Virus record (IMG/VR): IMGVR_UViG_3300005836_000029
Location: 1-64,000 of that record
From: a virus
DNA length: 64,000 nucleotides
Direction: 5' to 3' (one strand)
Positions 54,328 through 64,000 of the stretch are shown here, piece after piece (within the stretch, counting starts at the first letter, position 1; each line of letters begins with the position of its first letter). The notes below the pieces were generated by a model. It did no database searches. It saw nothing but the letters and a program-made list of their open reading frames with translations, and was not told the origin of the DNA. A program made the translations under genes and the position numbers.

Positions 54328-55185
54328 GTGAGCGAACCTCCGATCTGCGCCAAATGCGGCAAAGCGCCCGTCGAGGGCTGCGAGGGCCGTGGCTACGTGC
54401 CCATCGGAGACGACGACAACACCGTCCAGACGTGTGTCAACATCTACCGGAAGCAGCTCGCCGCCCACCTGGGCCCCGAGTTCCAGGGCGTTCCGCACAC
54501 GAGCAAGACGCCCCTGATCAAGCTCAATCCGTCCGGAGGGCCGCCTCTGGTCGATCTCACGAGCAAGAACCTCATGATCCACTGCACGTGGGCAGGGTTC
54601 AAGCCGCACCTGAAGTACGCTCTAGCCGTGAAGGGGCTCAACTTCTACTGGCGGATCATCACGGACGAGCGCATCCGCAACGTGTTCGTCGGCTCCGAGT
54701 CCTACAAGGCCAGGTCGCTCAAGGATCGGGAGGCCGTCAGCACCTACAACAATCTCTCGCAGTTCGCGGGTGCCGACTGGGAACTCGTCATCATCAAGCT
54801 CGGCTACCTCGGCTACCAAAATCGGGCAGCAGCCGGGGCCTTGAAGGAGGTCTTGCTTCATCGGGCCTCCCTCAACAAGGCCACATGGATTCTCCAAGAT
54901 TCGAGCAAGAGCCGGGAGTGGATCCATTCCCGGAACGATGACGTGGAGGAGTACATCCGCGAGTACTACCGCGACATCCAAATCGAAGCGGCGCCGACGG
55001 ATTACGAGGACCCCGAGCCCGAAGAGGAGGATGTCGGAATCGTCGTCGACGACGACGAGCCCCCGAGTGACCCGGAGAAGTACATCGTCGAAGAAGAACC
55101 CGCTGAGACCGTTCCGACGCAGGAAGAAGGGCTACACATGCCGTGGGATGATGCAACCCCGAGCCGAAAAAAGAGGCGGTGGTGA
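54328..55185 (+). CDS. Degenerate DnaC-like helicase loader
   Basis: A 285-aa protein with a GTG start, ending inside the start of the DnaB-like gene. Residues 7-18 hold a zinc-finger-like Cys set (Cys7, Cys10, Cys18). Residues about 80-215 follow the helicase loader layout: 'SKNLMIHCTWAGFKPHL' where the P-loop should be, 'WRIITDERIRNVF', then 'LVIIKLGYLGYQNRAAAGAL' and 'LLHRASLNKATWIL'. The P-loop keeps Lys92 but has Phe before it and Pro after it, and Walker B has Lys157 in place of Asp. ATP hydrolysis is therefore doubtful. The tail is very acidic, then basic. It likely helps place the adjacent helicase. Confidence 0.65.
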   Translation: MSEPPICAKCGKAPVEGCEGRGYVPIGDDDNTVQTCVNIYRKQLAAHLGPEFQGVPHTSKTPLIKLNPSGGPPLVDLTSKNLMIHCTWAGFKPHLKYALAVKGLNFYWRIITDERIRNVFVGSESYKARSLKDREAVSTYNNLSQFAGADWELVIIKLGYLGYQNRAAAGALKEVLLHRASLNKATWILQDSSKSREWIHSRNDDVEEYIREYYRDIQIEAAPTDYEDPEPEEEDVGIVVDDDEPPSDPEKYIVEEEPAETVPTQEEGLHMPWDDATPSRKKRRW

Positions 55186-56660
55186 GGCGCCTTCTCCGAA
55201 ACGTCATCGATTTCCAGGACGGCAAGGCTTCCAAGGAGGCCATGAACGTCAACTACCAGCGTCTTCAGGCGTCGACGATCGAATGGTCTCAGCCCGTCGA
55301 CGAGCGGATCTTCAAGTTCATCCGGGAGTTCTTCAACAACAACTTCGAGCTCCCGACGGCTCGAACGATCGAGGACTTCTTCACCCGCTCCGACGACATC
55401 GAGGTCACGGAGCGGCTCAAGGACATCCAGGCTGCCGAGACCTACGTCCACAAGAACTACGCCCACCTTCTCGGTCAGCTCCTCGACGACCAGAACCGCA
55501 TCAAGATGCGGGCTATCCTCAAGGACGCCGAAGAGATCGTAACCAAGGGTCGGATCATCCAGGAGGGCCGGGAGAAGATCAAGCTCCAGGGGGTCAAGGA
55601 TGCCCTCATCTACGTCAGCCGGAATGCCCACGGCCTCATGCCCGTGGAAGTCCATGCTCGGACGAACGGCGACCTTCGGGAAGACACGAACGAGGCGTGG
55701 CAGGAGTACCAGATTGCCAAGAGAGAACGCGGCAATGTCTGGGGAGCCTTCGTCGGGATCAACGAGATCGACAAGGTGTGCCACGGCTGCAAGCGTGGGG
55801 AACTATGGATCCACGCTGCGTTTGTCGGCGAGCTGAAGACGACGTTCGCCCTCAACTGGTGCTACAACCTCGTCACTCGGTACCGCACGAACGTCTTCTA
55901 CGTCTCGCTGGAGGTTCCGTACACGCAGATCCGCCGCAACATCTACGCCATCCATTCGGCGAACAAGAAGTGGGCTGCCCAAGGAAAGAAGCCCCTCGAC
56001 TACCGGCAGATCCGTGACGGGGAACTGACCCCCGAAGAGGAACCCTTCTACCAAGAGGTCCTCGACGACTTCCACAACAACCCCGAGTACTGCCGCTTCG
56101 AGGTCTGGGCCCCCGAGCACGATGTCACCATTGACGACATCCGGGTCCAAGCCGAGATGGCCCACAAGCAGATGGACGTGGGGTTCATCGTCATCGACCA
56201 CGGGGGCCTCGTGGAGCCGACGAAGAAGAACAAGGACTTCACGATCGAGCTCAACTCGGTGCTCCGAGCTGCCAAGAAGACGCTCGCCTTGCACTTCAAC
56301 GGGGGCGAAGGCGTGCCGGTGCTCATGCTCTTCCAGCTCAATCGCCAGGGCAAGGACGAGGCCGACAAGAACGAGGGACGCTACAAGATCAAAGCCCTCT
56401 CCTACGCAAACGAAGCCGAGAAGAGCGCCGACTACATCACGACGACGTACTTGAACGACGGCCATCGTGAGGCTGGGACCACGCTCTTCTGCAATCTCAA
56501 GAACCGCGACAACCCCTTGTTCAACACCTTCACGGCGACCGTCGACTTCAAGTGCCGGCGCATCCTGAACTTCGACCCCACCATCAGTCGTGTGGCGGGC
56601 ATGCGCATCGATACGCCCGAAGGCACCGAGGCTCTGCTCCAGGGCTTGGATAACGTCTGA
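55179..56660 (+). CDS. DnaB-like replicative helicase
   Basis: A 493-aa protein. An N-terminal helical domain precedes a RecA-like core: 'GELWIHAAFVGELKTTFALN' at the Walker A site (Lys220; Leu replaces the usual Gly before it), 'VFYVSLEVPYTQIRRN', Walker B 'FIVIDHGGLV' (Asp340) and 'LMLFQLNRQGKDEA'. The order and spacing match DnaB-type hexameric helicases, which unwind the fork 5' to 3'. Two in-frame GTG codons (55179, 55182) can be the start; both overlap the loader gene's end. It is coupled to the loader upstream and the primase zinc domain downstream. Confidence 0.85.
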   Translation: MVRRLLRNVIDFQDGKASKEAMNVNYQRLQASTIEWSQPVDERIFKFIREFFNNNFELPTARTIEDFFTRSDDIEVTERLKDIQAAETYVHKNYAHLLGQLLDDQNRIKMRAILKDAEEIVTKGRIIQEGREKIKLQGVKDALIYVSRNAHGLMPVEVHARTNGDLREDTNEAWQEYQIAKRERGNVWGAFVGINEIDKVCHGCKRGELWIHAAFVGELKTTFALNWCYNLVTRYRTNVFYVSLEVPYTQIRRNIYAIHSANKKWAAQGKKPLDYRQIRDGELTPEEEPFYQEVLDDFHNNPEYCRFEVWAPEHDVTIDDIRVQAEMAHKQMDVGFIVIDHGGLVEPTKKNKDFTIELNSVLRAAKKTLALHFNGGEGVPVLMLFQLNRQGKDEADKNEGRYKIKALSYANEAEKSADYITTTYLNDGHREAGTTLFCNLKNRDNPLFNTFTATVDFKCRRILNFDPTISRVAGMRIDTPEGTEALLQGLDNV

Positions 56661-57322
56661 TGGCCGACAACATCAAGAAGGCGCAGTCCGAGAGCGTCCT
56701 CGAGCAGACTCGACGGGCGTGGGTGCGGACTCGCATCGAGCAGATCCACCGAATCGTTTCTGCTCACGATGTCCTTCAACGGCGAGGGGGCATTGACTTC
56801 AAGAGCACTTCGGGGCGTGAAGAGCAGTTCTCCTGTCCCTTCCACGGGAAGGACACCAAGCCGTCGGCTCGCATCTACCCCGAGAGCGCCAGGAGCCCGA
56901 GTCATGCTTGGTGCTTCGTCTGCCAGGAACGCTGGGACGCCATCGCTCTCTGGCGGAAGTTCAACGGAGACGGGGACGACGTACCCTTCACGCGGACCCT
57001 CACCCAGATGGAACAGGCGTACGGCATCACCAAGCCGGCCATGCCGCAAGAGCTCTGGGGAGCTGGAGAGGAGTCCGCCGTCTCCCCCGACCTCCTCGCC
57101 TTCGATTCCCTCTACGATGTCTGCGAGAACCGCCTGAAGTTTGCCCGGCCGATCTACTACAAGCTTGGTGACATGACGGGATACCTCGCGGCAAGCTGCA
57201 TCCTCGACAAGATGAGGCACCGGGTCGACAAGAGGCAGGTGAGCCCCGAGAAGGGCTCCGAGGTCCTCAGGCAGCTCTTGGGTAAAATTGGGGGGAAAGT
57301 CCAGGCATGTCCCGACGCGTGA
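56660..57322 (+). CDS. Free-standing primase zinc-binding (CHC2-like) protein
   Basis: A 220-aa protein whose ATG overlaps the helicase stop. Residues 59-88 are a CHC2-type zinc motif: 'CPFHGKDTKPSARIYP' (Cys59, His62) and 'WCFVCQERWDAI' (Cys85, Cys88). This domain reads the template start site in DnaG-type primases. No TOPRIM or archaeo-eukaryotic primase catalytic motif follows; the C-terminal 120 residues are helical and unassigned. Either the catalytic subunit lies outside the window, or the host enzyme is used. Direct coupling to the helicase suits a helicase-primase complex. Confidence 0.75.
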   Translation: MADNIKKAQSESVLEQTRRAWVRTRIEQIHRIVSAHDVLQRRGGIDFKSTSGREEQFSCPFHGKDTKPSARIYPESARSPSHAWCFVCQERWDAIALWRKFNGDGDDVPFTRTLTQMEQAYGITKPAMPQELWGAGEESAVSPDLLAFDSLYDVCENRLKFARPIYYKLGDMTGYLAASCILDKMRHRVDKRQVSPEKGSEVLRQLLGKIGGKVQACPDA

Positions 57323-57738
57323 AGCTCCCTACCTTGGAAATGGGGGAGGTCACCTTGCTGGTCATGTGGGAAAAGGGGGGCAAATGGGAGGCAACCATCG
57401 AGCCCCTCCGAGGGACACGGGTGGGGGACCAAATCAGCATCATCGCTCAGGGGGCTCTCACCCATGCCCTCCACGGCCTCTCACGGCCTCTTGTCGACGC
57501 CTTGGGGATTCCTCCAGCCGGAGCCCTCAGGAAGTTGCCCGAAGCCACCAAACAGTGCTCCAAGCGCCGCAATTGCCCGTTCTACCAGAAGGCCCACTGT
57601 CACACAGGAGCGAAGCAGATTTCCTGGTGCTTCGTGCCCGGCGGATTTTCGGATGAGGCCGGAGTAGCCGCTGCATCGCAAGTCATCGCCGAATGGCGCC
57701 AGGGGGTGTATGTCGTCGTGGTCAAGGAGGACTCTTAA
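57307..57738 (+). CDS. Small Cys-cluster protein
   Basis: A 143-aa protein whose ATG overlaps the end of the zinc-domain gene and whose stop overlaps the polymerase ATG (TAATG), so it is part of the replication operon. Residues about 79-105 contain four cysteines spaced C-x5-C-x7-C-x9-C ('CSKRRNCPFYQKAHC'), which could bind zinc or an iron-sulphur cluster. The N-terminus is beta-like ('EVTLLVMWEKGGKWEATIE'). No known family; a primase- or polymerase-linked accessory role is suggested by position. Confidence 0.5.
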   Translation: MSRRVKLPTLEMGEVTLLVMWEKGGKWEATIEPLRGTRVGDQISIIAQGALTHALHGLSRPLVDALGIPPAGALRKLPEATKQCSKRRNCPFYQKAHCHTGAKQISWCFVPGGFSDEAGVAAASQVIAEWRQGVYVVVVKEDS

Positions 57739-60635
57739 TGCCGTCGCCTGAAGAGGAGGAGACCAACTGGGAAGAGGAATTGCTCAACAACATCCCAGTT
57801 GCGACTCCTACGCCGGAGCCTGCCAGTGCCGCTCCGACTCCGACTCCAGCCCGAGCACGACCGGCCATCTTCGACGACGATGACGCCGAAGATCCCGCTT
57901 CGTATTTGTCCTCGTCGGGCCTCCAGACGCAAACCCAGGTCGACGCCAACAATCGGAACCTCTTCAAGCCGTGGATGCAGTTCCACAAGTTCACCCTCGT
58001 CAAGACCGTCGACGAGGTGAAGAAGATCGTCGACGAGGCGCTTTTGCACGGTCGCTGCGCCCTCGACCTCGAGACGGAGGGCTTCGACAACCGCATCGAC
58101 TACGACGCCGACGGGAAGCCCTCTACGAAGCACAAGATCGTCGGCTTCTGCATCGGATTGAAGGGGGCGGGCTACTACATCCCGGTTCGACACTCGTTCG
58201 ACCGAACGTATGGCCAGGCCGACCCCAACGTCCCGGTTCAAGGCGTCGAGGCGGAGATCCGACGACTTTGCCTCGCATCCCAGCCCATCTTGACGGAAGA
58301 GGGCCTGGCCGAGGACCCCTACGCTTCGATGAAGTGGGAGGTCCCTCCCAGGATCATCCTGTACTTCTGGAATGCGCTGTTCGATCAGGAGTTTCTCTAC
58401 CCGATCACGGGCATCGACTTCTGGCATCCCGCGAGCTTCGAGGACGGAATGCTCGCGGCCTACACGACCTACACGGACGACGCCATCGGTCTCAAGGCCA
58501 AGGCGTTCGAGAAGCTATCCATTGCCGACCCCGATGTGAAGGACGGTGAAGGAAAACCGGTCGTCTACAACTACGAGATGATCGAGTTCGAGGAGCTCTT
58601 CCCCCCGAACATCAAGCGGGCGGATCGGAAGATCGCCGACGTGTATCCAGAGGAAGGCTCGGACATCGTTCGCTACGGCTGCTCGGATGGCATCTGCACC
58701 GAGCTCCTGTGCGAGACGAAGAAGGTCCAGTGGGAGTTCGCCAAGGAACCCGCCAGCTACACCTACAAGGAGGTCGTCAGCGACCCTACCAAGAAGCACA
58801 GCTTCACCTACAAACTCGAGCGCCAGACGGCCCAAGCTGTGCGTGTCCTGGAGCGGTCCCGGGCAAAAATCGACAAGGACGAGCTGAAACTGCTCCTCGA
58901 CGAAGCTCAGAACGAGCTCGAGTCCTACGAGGAGAAAATCAAGAAGATCGCAGCCTCCAAGGGTTTTCACGGGTTCAACCCCGGCTCGCCGGAGCAGCTC
59001 TCCACCTTCCTCTTCGAGAAACAGGGTCTCGACATCAACCCGAAGCCGAAGAAGAACGAGGCAAGCGGGCAGTACAAGACGGACGCTGCGACTCTCGAGC
59101 AGATGTACGAGGCCAACCCTGACATCGAGGTGCTCGACTGGGTGGTGAAGTACCGGCAGATCGACAAGATCATCGGCACGTACCTCACGAACCTCATCGC
59201 GAACTGCGACGAGAACGAGTGCCTTCGGTTCAAGTTCCTCCAGACGGGAGCTGCCACCGGACGCTTCACGGCGCCCTCGGGGGAGGTGGAGCACGGCTTC
59301 AGTGGCATCCCCATCCAGGGCATCCCCGCCAGGAGCGACCCGAAGAAGCCGAAGGTCGCCCACTCGCTTCGCCGGATGTTCGTAGCTCGTCCCGGCTACA
59401 CCCTCGTGAAGATCGACTACGCCGGGCAGGAACTACGCATCGTCACGAACCTCTCGAGGGAGCCCCTCTGGCTGAACGAGTTCAAGGCCGCAGCAGCTCA
59501 AGGCAAAGAGGCGGATCTTCACACGCTCACGGCCCAAGCCTTCTTCGGCCCGCACATCACGAAGGCCAACAAGGTCGAACGGAACATGGGCAAGATCGCG
59601 AACTTCTCGCTCATCTACGGCGGCGGGGTGCAAGCGATTCAGCGGGCGACGAAGTGCGACAAGGTGGAGGCATCCCGACGCAAAGCGAACTTCGACAAGA
59701 GCGTCCCGACCTTCGCCAAGTGGGTGGCGAAACAGCATGCGGACGTGAAGAGGGACCTTGGAGTCTCGACGGCCTTCCAGCGCTTCATTGCGATTCCGGA
59801 TGCCAACATCAAGCCCGGCCAGGTCATCCGTGGCCAGGCGATCGATGAGCAGGAGGCCCGTCGGATTCGAGCCGGTTGCGAGAGGAAGAGTACGAACTAC
59901 CCGATCCAGGGGAGTGGTGCCGACATCCTCAAGATCAGCCTGGTGAAGCTCGCGAAGGACCTCGGGAGGAGGGGCTGGCTCAGGAACGGGGGCGACGACA
60001 GCGTACGCATGATCATGACGGTCCACGACGAGATCGTCTTCGAGATCCGGCATGAGCGCCTGACGACCGCCCTGCCCGAGATCATCCGCATCATGGAATC
60101 TCCGAGCGCCCTCTGTCACTGGGAAATCCCGCTCGTCGTCGAGCCCCTCATCGGCCTGAACTGGGAGGCCAAGTACGACTGGCTCGAGATCATGCACGGC
60201 GAGGCTCCGGTGCCGGACTGGCTCGTCGACTTCGTGAAGCCGGGCGTCGATGTGGCCGTGCACACCCCGGAGCCCTCAGCTCCAGCCGCAACGGCTCCTG
60301 CCCAAACTCCGACGGCCTCCCCAGCTCCTTCGAAATCTGCGAAACCTTCGAGTTTGACGCCGAGCGTCAAAGCTGCAAAGGTCGCCACCTTCCTCCTGCC
60401 GAAGGACTTCCTCACGAGGGAGTCGATTCGCCTCGTGATGATGGCCATTTCCGGGTCTGTTCCCATCGGAGACCAGCCCCGTGAAGGGGTCGTTCGGCTC
60501 CAGGTCAAGGACCAGCAGGGCAACGTTCTGATCGACCCTAAGCTCGGGATCCATGTCTTTCCCGAGCGGTTTTCTCGGGAACTGCACGATCGGAACCTCG
60601 GAGGCAACGGCTGGGAGATCGAGGAAAATACCTAA
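57738..60635 (+). CDS. Family A DNA polymerase with proofreading domain and extra C-terminal domain
   Basis: A 965-aa protein; I chose ATG 57738, with GGAGG upstream, overlapping the previous stop. After an acidic, Pro-rich N-terminus comes a 3'-5' exonuclease with Exo I 'ALDLETEGFD', Exo II 'WNALFDQEFL' and Exo III 'RYGCSDG', all intact. The polymerase has motif A 'KIDYAGQELRI' (Asp560), motif B Arg615, Lys619, Phe623 and Tyr627 ('NMGKIANFSLIYGGG'), and motif C 'MTVHDEIVF' (Asp764). Residues about 835-890 are Pro/Ala linker, then about 75 residues of an extra domain of unknown role. This is the phage replicative polymerase. Confidence 0.93.
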   Translation: MPSPEEEETNWEEELLNNIPVATPTPEPASAAPTPTPARARPAIFDDDDAEDPASYLSSSGLQTQTQVDANNRNLFKPWMQFHKFTLVKTVDEVKKIVDEALLHGRCALDLETEGFDNRIDYDADGKPSTKHKIVGFCIGLKGAGYYIPVRHSFDRTYGQADPNVPVQGVEAEIRRLCLASQPILTEEGLAEDPYASMKWEVPPRIILYFWNALFDQEFLYPITGIDFWHPASFEDGMLAAYTTYTDDAIGLKAKAFEKLSIADPDVKDGEGKPVVYNYEMIEFEELFPPNIKRADRKIADVYPEEGSDIVRYGCSDGICTELLCETKKVQWEFAKEPASYTYKEVVSDPTKKHSFTYKLERQTAQAVRVLERSRAKIDKDELKLLLDEAQNELESYEEKIKKIAASKGFHGFNPGSPEQLSTFLFEKQGLDINPKPKKNEASGQYKTDAATLEQMYEANPDIEVLDWVVKYRQIDKIIGTYLTNLIANCDENECLRFKFLQTGAATGRFTAPSGEVEHGFSGIPIQGIPARSDPKKPKVAHSLRRMFVARPGYTLVKIDYAGQELRIVTNLSREPLWLNEFKAAAAQGKEADLHTLTAQAFFGPHITKANKVERNMGKIANFSLIYGGGVQAIQRATKCDKVEASRRKANFDKSVPTFAKWVAKQHADVKRDLGVSTAFQRFIAIPDANIKPGQVIRGQAIDEQEARRIRAGCERKSTNYPIQGSGADILKISLVKLAKDLGRRGWLRNGGDDSVRMIMTVHDEIVFEIRHERLTTALPEIIRIMESPSALCHWEIPLVVEPLIGLNWEAKYDWLEIMHGEAPVPDWLVDFVKPGVDVAVHTPEPSAPAATAPAQTPTASPAPSKSAKPSSLTPSVKAAKVATFLLPKDFLTRESIRLVMMAISGSVPIGDQPREGVVRLQVKDQQGNVLIDPKLGIHVFPERFSRELHDRNLGGNGWEIEENT

Positions 60636-60660: not shown

Positions 60661-61242
60661 GTGGCCGAGAAGCACGACTTCCTGTCGGTCTGCAACGATC
60701 ATGGGGTTCCGGTTCGGGACTTCGAGGCGCAGTTCTGCTTCCGCTGCCTTCAACCGGAATGTACGCGAAGTCTGAGCGGCAAGAGCCGTTTCGAGAGGCG
60801 GGTCGATACCTGGGAGGACCAGTTCTTCAACCACGTCCCCCGGATGTCCGAGGCCGACCCCCGGTTCGTGCAGCTTCGAGCGAAGAAATTCATCGAGATC
60901 GAGCGAGGCCCCGTCCCGGAAATCGGGCGGGCCGTTCGAGCTTGGATCGACCCCCGGGATCTTGACGCGGCACCCGAAAGCCCGCACTCTACGGAGGATT
61001 CTCCCCCGGTCCCTCCTGCTGAGGTTGCCGAAGAAGAGTCCTCCACCCTGACGGAGACCCCACTTTCCCAGTCCCCTCCACCCCCCGTGCTCATGAACAC
61101 GCCGTTCCGACAAGGGCAGATGCTACGAGGCTCGAAGCCAGCGGCACCCCCTCGGGACCCCTGGGCAGCCAAACCCAAAGAACCGGAGATTCCGAAGGTT
61201 CGGCCAGGGGCCAAGATCAAACTCGGCGGCTCTGGTGTATAG
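60661..61242 (+). CDS. Zinc-finger-like protein with Pro-rich tail
   Basis: A 193-aa protein with a GTG start. The first 40 residues contain 'VCNDHGVP' and 'CFRCLQPECTRS', a possible four-Cys metal site. A helical part follows ('VQLRAKKFIEIERGPVPEIG'), then a disordered Pro/Glu/Ser-rich stretch and a basic end ('VRPGAKIKLGG'). Such an organisation fits a nucleic-acid-binding or adaptor protein. The 25-base gap before it has GGAAAGG as ribosome binding site. Function unknown. Confidence 0.5.
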   Translation: MAEKHDFLSVCNDHGVPVRDFEAQFCFRCLQPECTRSLSGKSRFERRVDTWEDQFFNHVPRMSEADPRFVQLRAKKFIEIERGPVPEIGRAVRAWIDPRDLDAAPESPHSTEDSPPVPPAEVAEEESSTLTETPLSQSPPPPVLMNTPFRQGQMLRGSKPAAPPRDPWAAKPKEPEIPKVRPGAKIKLGGSGV

Positions 61243-61275: not shown

Positions 61276-61458
61276 ATGAAATGGGATTTCATCATCGGAA
61301 CGGACGGCAAGGTGGTCACGGAAGTGATCGATCGCGAGGATTCCGTCTGCTCCGAGATCAAGAGGGTCACGAACGCCGTGGGCCGCGAACTCTCCGACGA
61401 ACACATCGGTCCCGAGTGTGATCGGGTCGAGGAGATCCAGGGCGGCGGCGGGTCCTGA
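61276..61458 (+). CDS. DUF2997-like small protein
   Basis: A 60-aa protein resembling DUF2997: 'DFIIGTDGKVVTEVIDRED', then 'SVCSEIKRVTNAVG' and an acidic end. Members of this family have a short beta hairpin, a conserved Cys in a helix, and commonly lie beside DUF1257 genes; here a DUF1257-like gene follows after 40 bases. This is from recall of the family pattern and neighbourhood. Role unknown; likely a partner of the next two proteins. Confidence 0.55.
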   Translation: MKWDFIIGTDGKVVTEVIDREDSVCSEIKRVTNAVGRELSDEHIGPECDRVEEIQGGGGS

Positions 61459-61498
61459 TCTCGAAGCAAGAACCACCGAAAGGAAAAGGACCACCACC

Positions 61499-61837
61499 AT
61501 GAGTCACCGTGTGACCACACAAACCGAGATCAAGGACCAGGCCCTGGCCATCCAGGCCCTCAAGGCCGCCAAGATGGACTTCACCCAGAGCGGGTCGACC
61601 ATCCGCATCACGAGCGGCCCGATCGCAGGCGCCAGCATCAACCTCACCACCGGCGACGTCGAAGGGGACACCGACCAGGGGCATCGCCGGAGCGACAACA
61701 GCCTCGGCCTCCTGAAGCGCCACTACGCCGAAGCGAAGATCCAGCAGGAGTGCCGGATCCAGGGCATCACGATCGAGTCCCGCACCGTCGAGAAGGACGG
61801 CCGGATTCGGCTGCGCTGCCAGGGTCACTTCGCCTGA
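61499..61837 (+). CDS. Ycf35-like (DUF1257) protein
   Basis: A 112-aa protein with a strong ribosome binding site (AGGAAAAGGA). It begins 'MSHRVTTQTEIKDQALAIQA', matching the 'MSHF-T-I-T-I-D' start typical of Ycf35/DUF1257, and ends with 'LLKRHYAEAKI' and a final beta hairpin, again as in that family. Ycf35 is encoded in red algal plastids and cyanobacteria and has no established biochemical role that I can cite. It is followed by an intrinsic terminator, then the Ycf46-like ATPase gene. Confidence 0.6.
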   Translation: MSHRVTTQTEIKDQALAIQALKAAKMDFTQSGSTIRITSGPIAGASINLTTGDVEGDTDQGHRRSDNSLGLLKRHYAEAKIQQECRIQGITIESRTVEKDGRIRLRCQGHFA

Positions 61838-61862
61838 TCACGCTGCCGACCCCGGCGGAAAT

Positions 61863-61897
61863 GAGGAAGGCCCACTTCGGAAGAAGGGGCCTTCTTC
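61863..61897 (+). terminator. Intrinsic terminator
   Basis: GAGGAAGGCCC and GGGCCTTCTTC form an 11-pair stem (one G-T pair), with an internal C-TTCG-G tetraloop inside the loop, followed by T-rich ACTTTCAT. It lies 25 bases after the Ycf35-like gene and ends its transcript, so the Ycf46-like gene probably has its own promoter between 61898 and 61945. Confidence 0.75.
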
Positions 61898-61945
61898 ACT
61901 TTCATCCCTAAGTTCTCGACGAAGCGGTGTAGAAGGTACTTGATC

Positions 61946-63544
61946 ATGGCCCAGTTGAATCCCGACCTGTACTTCCACCTGAAGAGCCTCTCTCGCCTCA
62001 TCTACTACGTGACCGAGGAAGAGGATCGCGCCATCATGAAGTTGGCCGAGGTTCTCAAGCCGCACGCCGACGACAACCGGGTCCACGTGTTCAACGCCGC
62101 CTTTGGGCTTCAGCCCATCCAAGCGGTCGTGGATGACTGGCGTCGGCGAACCCATGCGGAGAGCACGACGGCTACCGACATCCATCGGGCGCTCATCCAA
62201 ATCTACAAGGAGGAGCCCCTCAACAAGAAGAACTTCTACATCATCACGGACCCCGAGCGGTGGCTCGTCGACACGCATGTCCAGCGGCGGGTCCTCAACA
62301 TCATCCACCAGGTTCACGCGGACGAGAACAACGTCAAGATCCTGTTCTTCATCTCGAACCGGCTGTCCATCCCGCCGAAGCTCCAGCGGTACATCGAGGT
62401 CATCTACGACCGTGGGCTCAGCGAAGAGGAGTACGACGAGGAGGTCGACAAGATCGCCAAGAAGCTCCAGACCCAGGCGCCGAAGGGGTCCATCCGCTTC
62501 TTCAAGGGTCTCACGTCGTTCGAGGTCGATGCTGCCATCGCCCAGTCGGTGGTCAAGACCCGCAAGGACAAGAACCCTGCCGACCAGCGTCGGATCGACC
62601 CCAAGTTCATCGCGGACTACAAGCGCCGGCAGCTCCACAAGACGGACCTCTTGACCTACGTCGACGTCTCGGCCTTCGGCTTCGAGCAGATCGGCGGAGT
62701 GAAGCGGTTCAAGCAGTGGGCCGAAGCCACGAAGGCGTGCTGGACCGACGAGGGGCAGAAGTTCGGTCTCGAGCCCCCGAAGGGTGTCCTGGCGGTCGGC
62801 GTCTGGGGCTGTGGCAAGAGTCTCTCCGTCAAGGCGCTCGGCAACGCCTGGCGTTTGCCGGTCGTCAGCCTCGAGATGGGGCGGCTGCGGTCTTCCGGGG
62901 TCGGCGAGTCCGAGGCCAACGTCTACCGGGCGATCAACCTGATCGAGTCGGTGGCCCCCTGCATCGTCTGGATCGACGAAGCCGAGAAGAGCTTGGCCGG
63001 CAACCAGAGCTCGGCACACTCGGATGCCGGGACCACGGCCCGGACCATCGGCATCCTCTCGACCTGGCTCCAGGAAACGAAGTCCCAGGTCTGCCTGGCG
63101 ATGACGGCGAACAGCCTGAAGACGCTGCCGGTCGAGTTCGTCAACCGCATCGAGGAACGCTTCTTCTTCGACTTGCCGAACGAGGACGAGCGGATCGAGA
63201 TCCTCAAGATCCACCTCACCAAGAAGAACCAGGACCCGACGAAGTTCCAGCTCGCCGAGCTGGCCGAAGCCGCCAAGAACATGGTCGGTCGTGAGATCGA
63301 ACAAGCGATCCGGTCGGCCCTTCGGGATTCCTTCATGGCCAACAAGGATGGCCTGGACCAGGCGATTCTCCTTGCCGAGATGCAGCGCAAGCCTCGCATC
63401 TTCAAAACCATGGTCGACGAGCTTCGAGAGGTCCTCGAGTGGGTCGGGTTCGACCCCGACCTCAACGAGGGCATCCGGGCGAAGTTCGCTTCGGACAAGA
63501 GGAGCGAGACCTTCCGGGAGTTCAAGGTAGCTGGCAAGGAATGA
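61946..63544 (+). CDS. Ycf46-like AAA+ ATPase
   Basis: A 532-aa protein; ATG 61946 has AGAAGG nine bases upstream and is preferred over the TTG at 61940. The N-terminal 240 residues are the non-ATPase region typical of Ycf46, with 'SLSRLIYYVTEEEDRAIMKL' and 'LFFISNRLSIPPKLQRYIEV'. The AAA+ core has 'FEQIGGVKRFKQWAEA', Walker A 'GVWGCGKS' (Lys291), 'LRSSGVGESEANVYRAI', Walker B 'CIVWIDEAEKS' (Asp344, Glu345), sensor 1 'AMTANS', an arginine finger in 'VNRIEERFFFDLP' and sensor 2 'GREIEQAIRSA'. It looks fully active and may remodel a protein target, possibly with the two upstream small proteins. Confidence 0.8.
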   Translation: MAQLNPDLYFHLKSLSRLIYYVTEEEDRAIMKLAEVLKPHADDNRVHVFNAAFGLQPIQAVVDDWRRRTHAESTTATDIHRALIQIYKEEPLNKKNFYIITDPERWLVDTHVQRRVLNIIHQVHADENNVKILFFISNRLSIPPKLQRYIEVIYDRGLSEEEYDEEVDKIAKKLQTQAPKGSIRFFKGLTSFEVDAAIAQSVVKTRKDKNPADQRRIDPKFIADYKRRQLHKTDLLTYVDVSAFGFEQIGGVKRFKQWAEATKACWTDEGQKFGLEPPKGVLAVGVWGCGKSLSVKALGNAWRLPVVSLEMGRLRSSGVGESEANVYRAINLIESVAPCIVWIDEAEKSLAGNQSSAHSDAGTTARTIGILSTWLQETKSQVCLAMTANSLKTLPVEFVNRIEERFFFDLPNEDERIEILKIHLTKKNQDPTKFQLAELAEAAKNMVGREIEQAIRSALRDSFMANKDGLDQAILLAEMQRKPRIFKTMVDELREVLEWVGFDPDLNEGIRAKFASDKRSETFREFKVAGKE

Positions 63545-63781: not shown

Positions 63782-64000
63782 ATGCCCGACGACGACTGGG
63801 ACGAGCACGACGAGATCGACTTGGTGACCGCCGAAGGCTACATGCTGGAGGCGGGGCAGGACCCTGACGCTGCTCGAACAGCTCTCGAGCAGCGGATCCG
63901 CCCGCAGGTCCTTTCCGATGCTCGACCCGAAGCCGACTGGCTTCGGGATGCCAGGGCCCTCCTCAACGGGAACAAGGCCATCCGAGACTTCGTTCGGGAA
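63782..64000 (+). CDS. Acidic hypothetical protein (3' end outside window)
   Basis: Open from the ATG at 63782 to the end of the window (73 codons). The N-terminus is very acidic ('PDDDWDEHDEIDLVTAEG'), followed by a charged helix ('ARTALEQRIRPQVLSDARPE'). The gap before it is only nine bases, so it is likely in the same transcript as the ATPase. Function unknown; the rest is not visible. Confidence 0.5.
   Translation, partial: MPDDDWDEHDEIDLVTAEGYMLEAGQDPDAARTALEQRIRPQVLSDARPEADWLRDARALLNGNKAIRDFVRE

Follow-up and report, generated by a model that had tools for sequence, protein, structure and literature searches.

The question raised by this locus is whether three consecutive phage genes, whose products are a Ycf46-type AAA+ ATPase and two small proteins, one DUF2997-like and one of the DUF1257 (Ycf35) type, make up one functional unit, and on what such a unit would act. 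Ycf46, Ycf35 and DUF2997 are conserved in cyanobacteria, and Ycf46 and Ycf35 occur also in algal plastids. The stretch studied (the window, 64,000 nucleotides) represents most of a 66,418-base IMG/VR virus record. The three ORFs were found where the initial annotation had placed them, at 61276-63544, and form part of the following series of features, some of which keep their position in a clade of jumbo-phage relatives (the jumbo clade, to which the window belongs):

55179..56660, + strand: DnaB-like replicative helicase (phrog_19, E=5.7e-31); position kept in the jumbo clade
56660..57322, + strand: primase zinc-domain-like protein (phrog_47 DNA primase, E=9.9e-7); position kept in the jumbo clade
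57307..57738, + strand: 143-aa conserved block protein; position kept in the jumbo clade
57735..60635, + strand: family A DNA polymerase, PolA (PF00476, E=3.7e-71; phrog_17, E=6.8e-91)
60661..61242, + strand: 193-aa 4-Cys protein (alignment; N-termini of relatives)
61276..61458, + strand: DUF2997-like protein, 60 aa (profile matches, alignment)
61499..61837, + strand: DUF1257 (Ycf35-type) protein, 112 aa (profile matches; AlphaFold2 pLDDT 78)
61863..61897, + strand: GC-rich terminator-like stem-loop between the DUF1257 and AAA genes (z=-3.65; relatives have stem-loops in the same position)
61926..61931, + strand: GGTGTA element, promoter-like, 5′ of the AAA start (conserved in the jumbo clade)
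61946..63544, + strand: Ycf46-type tandem AAA+ ATPase, 532 aa (phrog_8638, E=1.5e-85; PF00004; BLASTP, 1e-63; pLDDT 91.6)
61946..62650, + strand: predicted degenerate, Walker-less N-terminal AAA-like domain, residues ~1-235 (Foldseek; sequence lacks Walker A)
62798..62821, + strand: Walker A, GVWGCGKS (K291, invariant in 63 relatives)
62975..62980, + strand: Walker B acidic pair D344-E345 (sequence; invariant in relatives)
63146..63148, + strand: arginine finger R401 (invariant in 63/63 relatives)
63782..64000 (continuing to 65038), + strand: start of a ~400-aa clade protein 3′ of the AAA gene (E=5e-124 to the clade profile)

Gene block and transcription units

Besides DnaB, the primase zinc-domain protein and PolA, a phrog_62 helicase is also encoded upstream of the three genes, and it is on account of these neighbours that the label 'replication region' is right. 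The Pfam and PHROG matches thus bear out the claimed position of the trio next to the polymerase. The ATPase was read from ATG 61946, a frame that fits the numbering of K291, D344 and E345. For the DUF1257-like gene the ATG at 61499 was preferred, the mechanical ORF beginning at GTG 61418.

In the tree the window clade is separate and fully supported, on a long branch. Its other members lie on contigs of up to 529 kb, and the 66-kb record therefore probably represents part of a jumbo phage genome. The block is almost unchanged across the clade: DnaB, primase zinc domain, 143-aa protein, PolA, 4-Cys protein, DUF2997, DUF1257, AAA, 400-aa protein. DnaB, the primase domain and PolA adjoin the trio in nearly all members. 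The 143-aa protein had no family match in Pfam or PHROG. The 193-aa protein, with the cysteine pattern C-x(~14)-C-x2-C-x4-C, sits between PolA and DUF2997 across the clade (L284-L308); its four cysteines form a possible metal site, and no family was found for it in Pfam, PHROG, PADLOC or NCBIfam. The ~400-aa protein directly follows the ATPase throughout the clade (L002:7601-8809). PHROG, PADLOC and NCBIfam gave no family for it, and in Pfam it has only an HTH match below the cut-off.

Two elements lie in the gap between the DUF1257 and ATPase genes. The stem-loop has counterparts in the same gap of relatives, several of them with T runs. Some stem-loops of the clade are extremely stable (z=-7.4 in L295, z=-8.0 in L296). 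The hexamer GGTGTA is the top enriched 6-mer 9 to 22 bases 5′ of start codons in the clade (35 seen versus 3.4 expected), peaks sharply 10 bases before the start codon (clade loci L284-L308) and occurs 129 times on the coding-rich strand (versus 50). The enrichment was absent from other viral loci, and a search around the trio found no sigma-70 promoters. GGTGTA may act as a promoter or start element peculiar to this lineage. With the terminator-like hairpin and GGTGTA lying between the small pair and the ATPase gene, a simple single operon is improbable for the trio; the small pair would end one transcription unit and the ATPase begin another. Separate transcription units would alter the initial picture of a single trio and leave the functional link intact.

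Families and predicted architecture of the three proteins

The initial annotation had assigned the proteins to DUF2997-like, Ycf35-like and Ycf46-like families, and had proposed profile searches for all three. Pfam DUF1257 (PF06868) matched the window protein with E=0.0014 and 19.3 bits, below the cut-off of 22.2. A DUF1257 profile built from other phages and bacteria, with the window clade left out, picked the window ORF out of 845 ORFs (E=2e-10), and a comparison of profiles with hhalign gave 98% (E=7e-14), column-shuffled controls reaching at most 1.04%. With DUF1257/Ycf35 proteins the window protein shares the MSH N-terminus, the helix-strand layout and a C-terminal block of the type Y..G..(beta)(beta), but it is shorter and lacks the central YD(V/L)G segment. 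Its model had no fold match in the PDB (best E=0.57), and searches by sequence gave no meaningful relatives of solved structure for DUF1257 or DUF2997.

For the DUF2997 protein of the window the Pfam scan gave no match. Three close jumbo-phage relatives match PF11211 directly (1e-4, 0.0017 and 0.013), the closest relatives reaching at most 22.4 bits versus a cut-off of 24.1. When the profile of 17 clade members was compared with that of the rest, the match was 95% (E=3.3e-8), whereas 50 column shuffles gave at most 4.1%. The window protein has the beta-hairpin (as a pattern), Gly, invariant Cys and helix of DUF2997, Cys25 being the sole invariant column of the alignment; it differs in an extra SDE..GPEC tail with a second Cys. 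The family assignments are thus supported, those of the small proteins by profiles from relatives and not by the direct Pfam cut-offs, and that of the ATPase by phrog_8638 and BLASTP.

Residues 8-499 of the ATPase match phrog_8638, a full-length match that includes the degenerate N-terminal half. Residues 18-499 are 30% identical to a cyanobacterial Ycf46-type protein (BLASTP). The family of phrog_8638 includes proteins of mycobacteriophage cluster O; the cluster O phage SchoolBus gave no Pfam match to DUF1257 or DUF2997. As in Ycf46 (Synechocystis slr0374, COG0464-type), a degenerate N-terminal half is joined to an active C-terminal AAA domain, and in cyanobacteria, as in the window, a DUF1257 gene adjoins the ATPase gene. 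The window ATPase differs in being phage-encoded, in its place in a replication block and in having lost one of the two arginines that the second region of homology (SRH) commonly carries.

The initial annotation had stated that all catalytic motifs are kept. K291, D344, E345 and the arginine finger R401 are indeed invariant in 63/63 aligned relatives. In the window clade, however, the R-(K/R) pair preceding the R401 region, present in 59 of the 63 relatives, is deleted, which takes one of the two usual SRH arginines (R-K/R-G-R) from all four clade members in alignment A10; the second SRH arginine is a common trait that is not known as defining for Ycf46-type ATPases. The pore-loop position is occupied by G318 in the window ATPase and by L, F or Y in most relatives. 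This glycine tells against taking the ATPase for a simple aromatic pore-loop unfoldase; substrate threading is uncertain and not to be taken for granted.

In Foldseek searches the AlphaFold2 model of the ATPase covered the two rings of p97, Cdc48, NVL, Rix7 and Drg1 in alignments of ~550 columns, nearly its whole chain (E ~1e-19 to 1e-22; best TM ~0.6). In the model the N-terminal half is an inactive AAA-like domain without Walker motifs, and the C-terminal half, judged by its motifs, is an active AAA domain. The predicted architecture is that of a Cdc48-type remodeller, in the sense of working like Cdc48, not of belonging to its family: the tandem AAA ring fold is shared with Cdc48/p97, but the window protein has no N domain, its first ring lacks the Walker motifs (no Walker A), and its NCBIfam CDC48 score was 66.9 versus a cut-off of 802.65 bits. 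The predicted model therefore supports the earlier placement among remodelling ATPases.

The closest PADLOC match of the AAA domain was the defence ATPase IetA (2.9e-16), over the AAA region alone. Identity with IetA was rejected, as the score was 52.7 versus 510 bits and no adjacent protease was recognised, and PADLOC and NCBIfam gave only generic AAA similarity to defence systems. No MoxR-VWA pairing was found, a VWA domain being absent from the scanned window proteins (Pfam) and from the top neighbour tallies.

Recurrence of the gene set in phages and bacteria

When the ATPase served as seed, 80 loci each were collected from bacteria and viruses, and iterated profiles were then applied. All three genes were present in 60 of 91 phage or viral loci and in 20 of 80 bacterial loci. 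As these counts start from the ATPase, a second search was seeded from DUF1257: all three genes were found in each of its 17 viral loci. In the window clade DUF2997 lies beside DUF1257 in 14/14 loci and the ATPase is present in 13, the one locus without it ending at a contig edge. The ATPase-seeded, DUF1257-seeded and clade sets share some contigs; some DUF2997 genes are masked in the drawn order by the overlap filter but are present among the matches. In Myxococcota the ATPase adjoins all 25 sampled DUF1257 genes, 24 of them also with DUF2997. In cyanobacteria a second, shorter DUF1257 gene directly follows Ycf46 in 19/20 sampled genomes (L247-L266). Gene order varies across lineages, yet the set is kept together, a pattern better explained by function than by a frozen order. 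ATPase-only lineages also exist (Corndog-type phages and many bacteria). This survey bears out the co-occurrence of the genes in phages and bacteria.

Phages carry the set in at least two arrangements, that of the jumbo clade and that of phages of ~80-110 kb, here called siphophages as a shorthand that implies nothing on morphology. The latter group includes cultured Rhizobium, Pseudomonas, Aeromonas, Agrobacterium and Rhodobacter phages, and has the order AAA, X (~210 aa), DUF1257, DUF2997; in many of its members phrog_38408 and a replication-initiation/DnaD-like gene lie just 3′ of the set. Rhizobium phages RHph_I4 and L338C, Pseudomonas phages PA_L9 and SM1 and Aeromonas phage HJ05 thus cluster the same three families as the window, but in reversed order, with the extra ~210-aa X and with a replication initiator instead of PolA as neighbour. 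In one large phage group protein X (~200-250 aa) lies right after the ATPase, at L007:5576-6214, L009:5189-5815 and 32 other viral loci; no known family was found for it, and by comparison neither the 4-Cys nor the ~400-aa protein of the clade is its counterpart. DUF3150 was seen in 5/145 scanned neighbour proteins, and some viral loci have a ~330-aa gene after the AAA gene (for example L165, L183 and L185). DUF3150 occurs near MoxR-type AAA genes.

The bacterial sets lie beside FHA coiled-coil or WGR proteins and not beside replication genes; of the Pfam families seen in bacterial neighbours, FHA was the most frequent (7/77). Large proteins of ~800-1230 aa precede the bacterial ATPase at several loci, mostly of Myxococcota (L027, L028, L030, L034, L036), that of L027 having an FHA domain and a coiled coil. 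In Nostoc plasmid copies proteins of ~360-400 aa lie upstream of the ATPase. As the bacterial sets stand in non-replication contexts, the basic activity is not confined to replication, and the replication link may be a phage-specific use or mere neighbourhood.

In cyanobacteria a ~115-aa gene lies in front of Ycf46, and a DUF2997-DUF1257 (ycf35) pair occurs also without a neighbouring ATPase. The cyanobacterial DUF2997-ycf35-fed7 cluster includes a 4Fe-4S ferredoxin gene (PMC4284462). Loss of Ycf46 lowers EcaB carbonic anhydrase activity, and the operon slr0373-slr0374-slr0376 is responsive to a lack of iron and to oxidative stress (PMC7496141). The order ~115-aa gene, Ycf46, DUF1257 probably corresponds to this stress operon; we infer that slr0376 is the DUF1257 gene after Ycf46.

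Proposed function of the set

We propose that the ATPase, with a predicted inactive AAA-like N-terminal ring and an active C-terminal ring, would work as a Cdc48-like ring that remodels protein complexes. As its dedicated small partners, DUF1257 and DUF2997 would serve as adaptors or regulators, choosing the substrate or gating the ATPase, and the three proteins would bind each other. In the jumbo clade the module is built into the replication block and would most likely act on the phage's helicase, primase, polymerase or their host partners. The recurring trio very probably makes up one functional unit; the explanation as a whole, a Cdc48-like module with two dedicated partners acting on the phage replication assembly, we hold to be evenly balanced between right and wrong. 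It is weakened by the small-gene pair that occurs without the ATPase, by the ATPase-only lineages, by the hairpin and promoter-like element before the ATPase gene, by the bacterial neighbours and by G318.

The tight linkage to DnaB, primase and PolA in the jumbo clade, and the replication-initiation genes linked to the set in siphophages, speak against another reading, in which host proteins (for takeover or counter-defence) or virion assembly would be the target of the module and its position would reflect only early co-expression. The FHA and WGR neighbours of the bacterial relatives would suit this reading, as would the match to IetA, of which the window ATPase has no features beyond the AAA domain. 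In other jumbo phages a part in virion assembly has also been suggested for AAA+ chaperones (PMC7824862). We regard action on host or virion proteins as rather unlikely. A role as a redox or metal-cofactor chaperone appears still less probable: DUF2997 and DUF1257 would handle a metal or Fe-S partner, and the AAA ring would insert or release a cofactor or reactivate a metalloenzyme. Rubisco-activase-like and MoxR-like AAA proteins have such activities. The ferredoxin gene of the DUF2997-ycf35-fed7 cluster, the lowered EcaB activity on loss of Ycf46 and the iron and oxidative-stress response of its operon agree with it, and so do the invariant Cys25 and the 4-Cys protein that precedes DUF2997 in the jumbo clade. 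However, a single Cys is by itself no metal site, the 4-Cys protein is clade-specific, and no ferredoxin was recognised beside the scanned phage trios. Finally, the weak Pfam scores of the window proteins, taken alone, would allow a chance grouping of unrelated small ORFs beside an AAA gene; this was rejected, and we give it practically no credence, in view of the recurrence of the set in separate lineages of phages and bacteria and the significant profile matches with shuffle controls.

Under the proposed module, Ycf46, DUF1257 (Ycf35 and the Ycf46-linked paralogue) and DUF2997 might even be parts of one ancient machine of cyanobacteria and plastids, Myxococcota and phages, put to replication use in the jumbo clade; we advance this tentatively and rather doubt it. 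If true, an ancient machine became a fixed part of the jumbo-clade replication block, remodelling helicase, primase and polymerase complexes.

All of the families were known already. What is new is the version of the jumbo clade, which is tied to a replication block, runs in the reverse order and has additional partners and a changed arginine region; with it, phage biology gains a predicted Cdc48-like tandem AAA ATPase in the replication block of a jumbo-phage clade. In the open-access literature, to which the search was confined, we found neither a phage role for Ycf46, DUF1257 or DUF2997 nor a three-part system. For Ycf46, Ycf35 and DUF2997 the linkage of the set in phages and distant bacteria offers a concrete hypothesis, one machine with two partners. 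The cultured Rhizobium, Pseudomonas and Aeromonas phages that carry the set provide tractable hosts, and the record of Rhizobium phage RHph_I4 already names DUF1257 and DUF2997 beside the ATPase.
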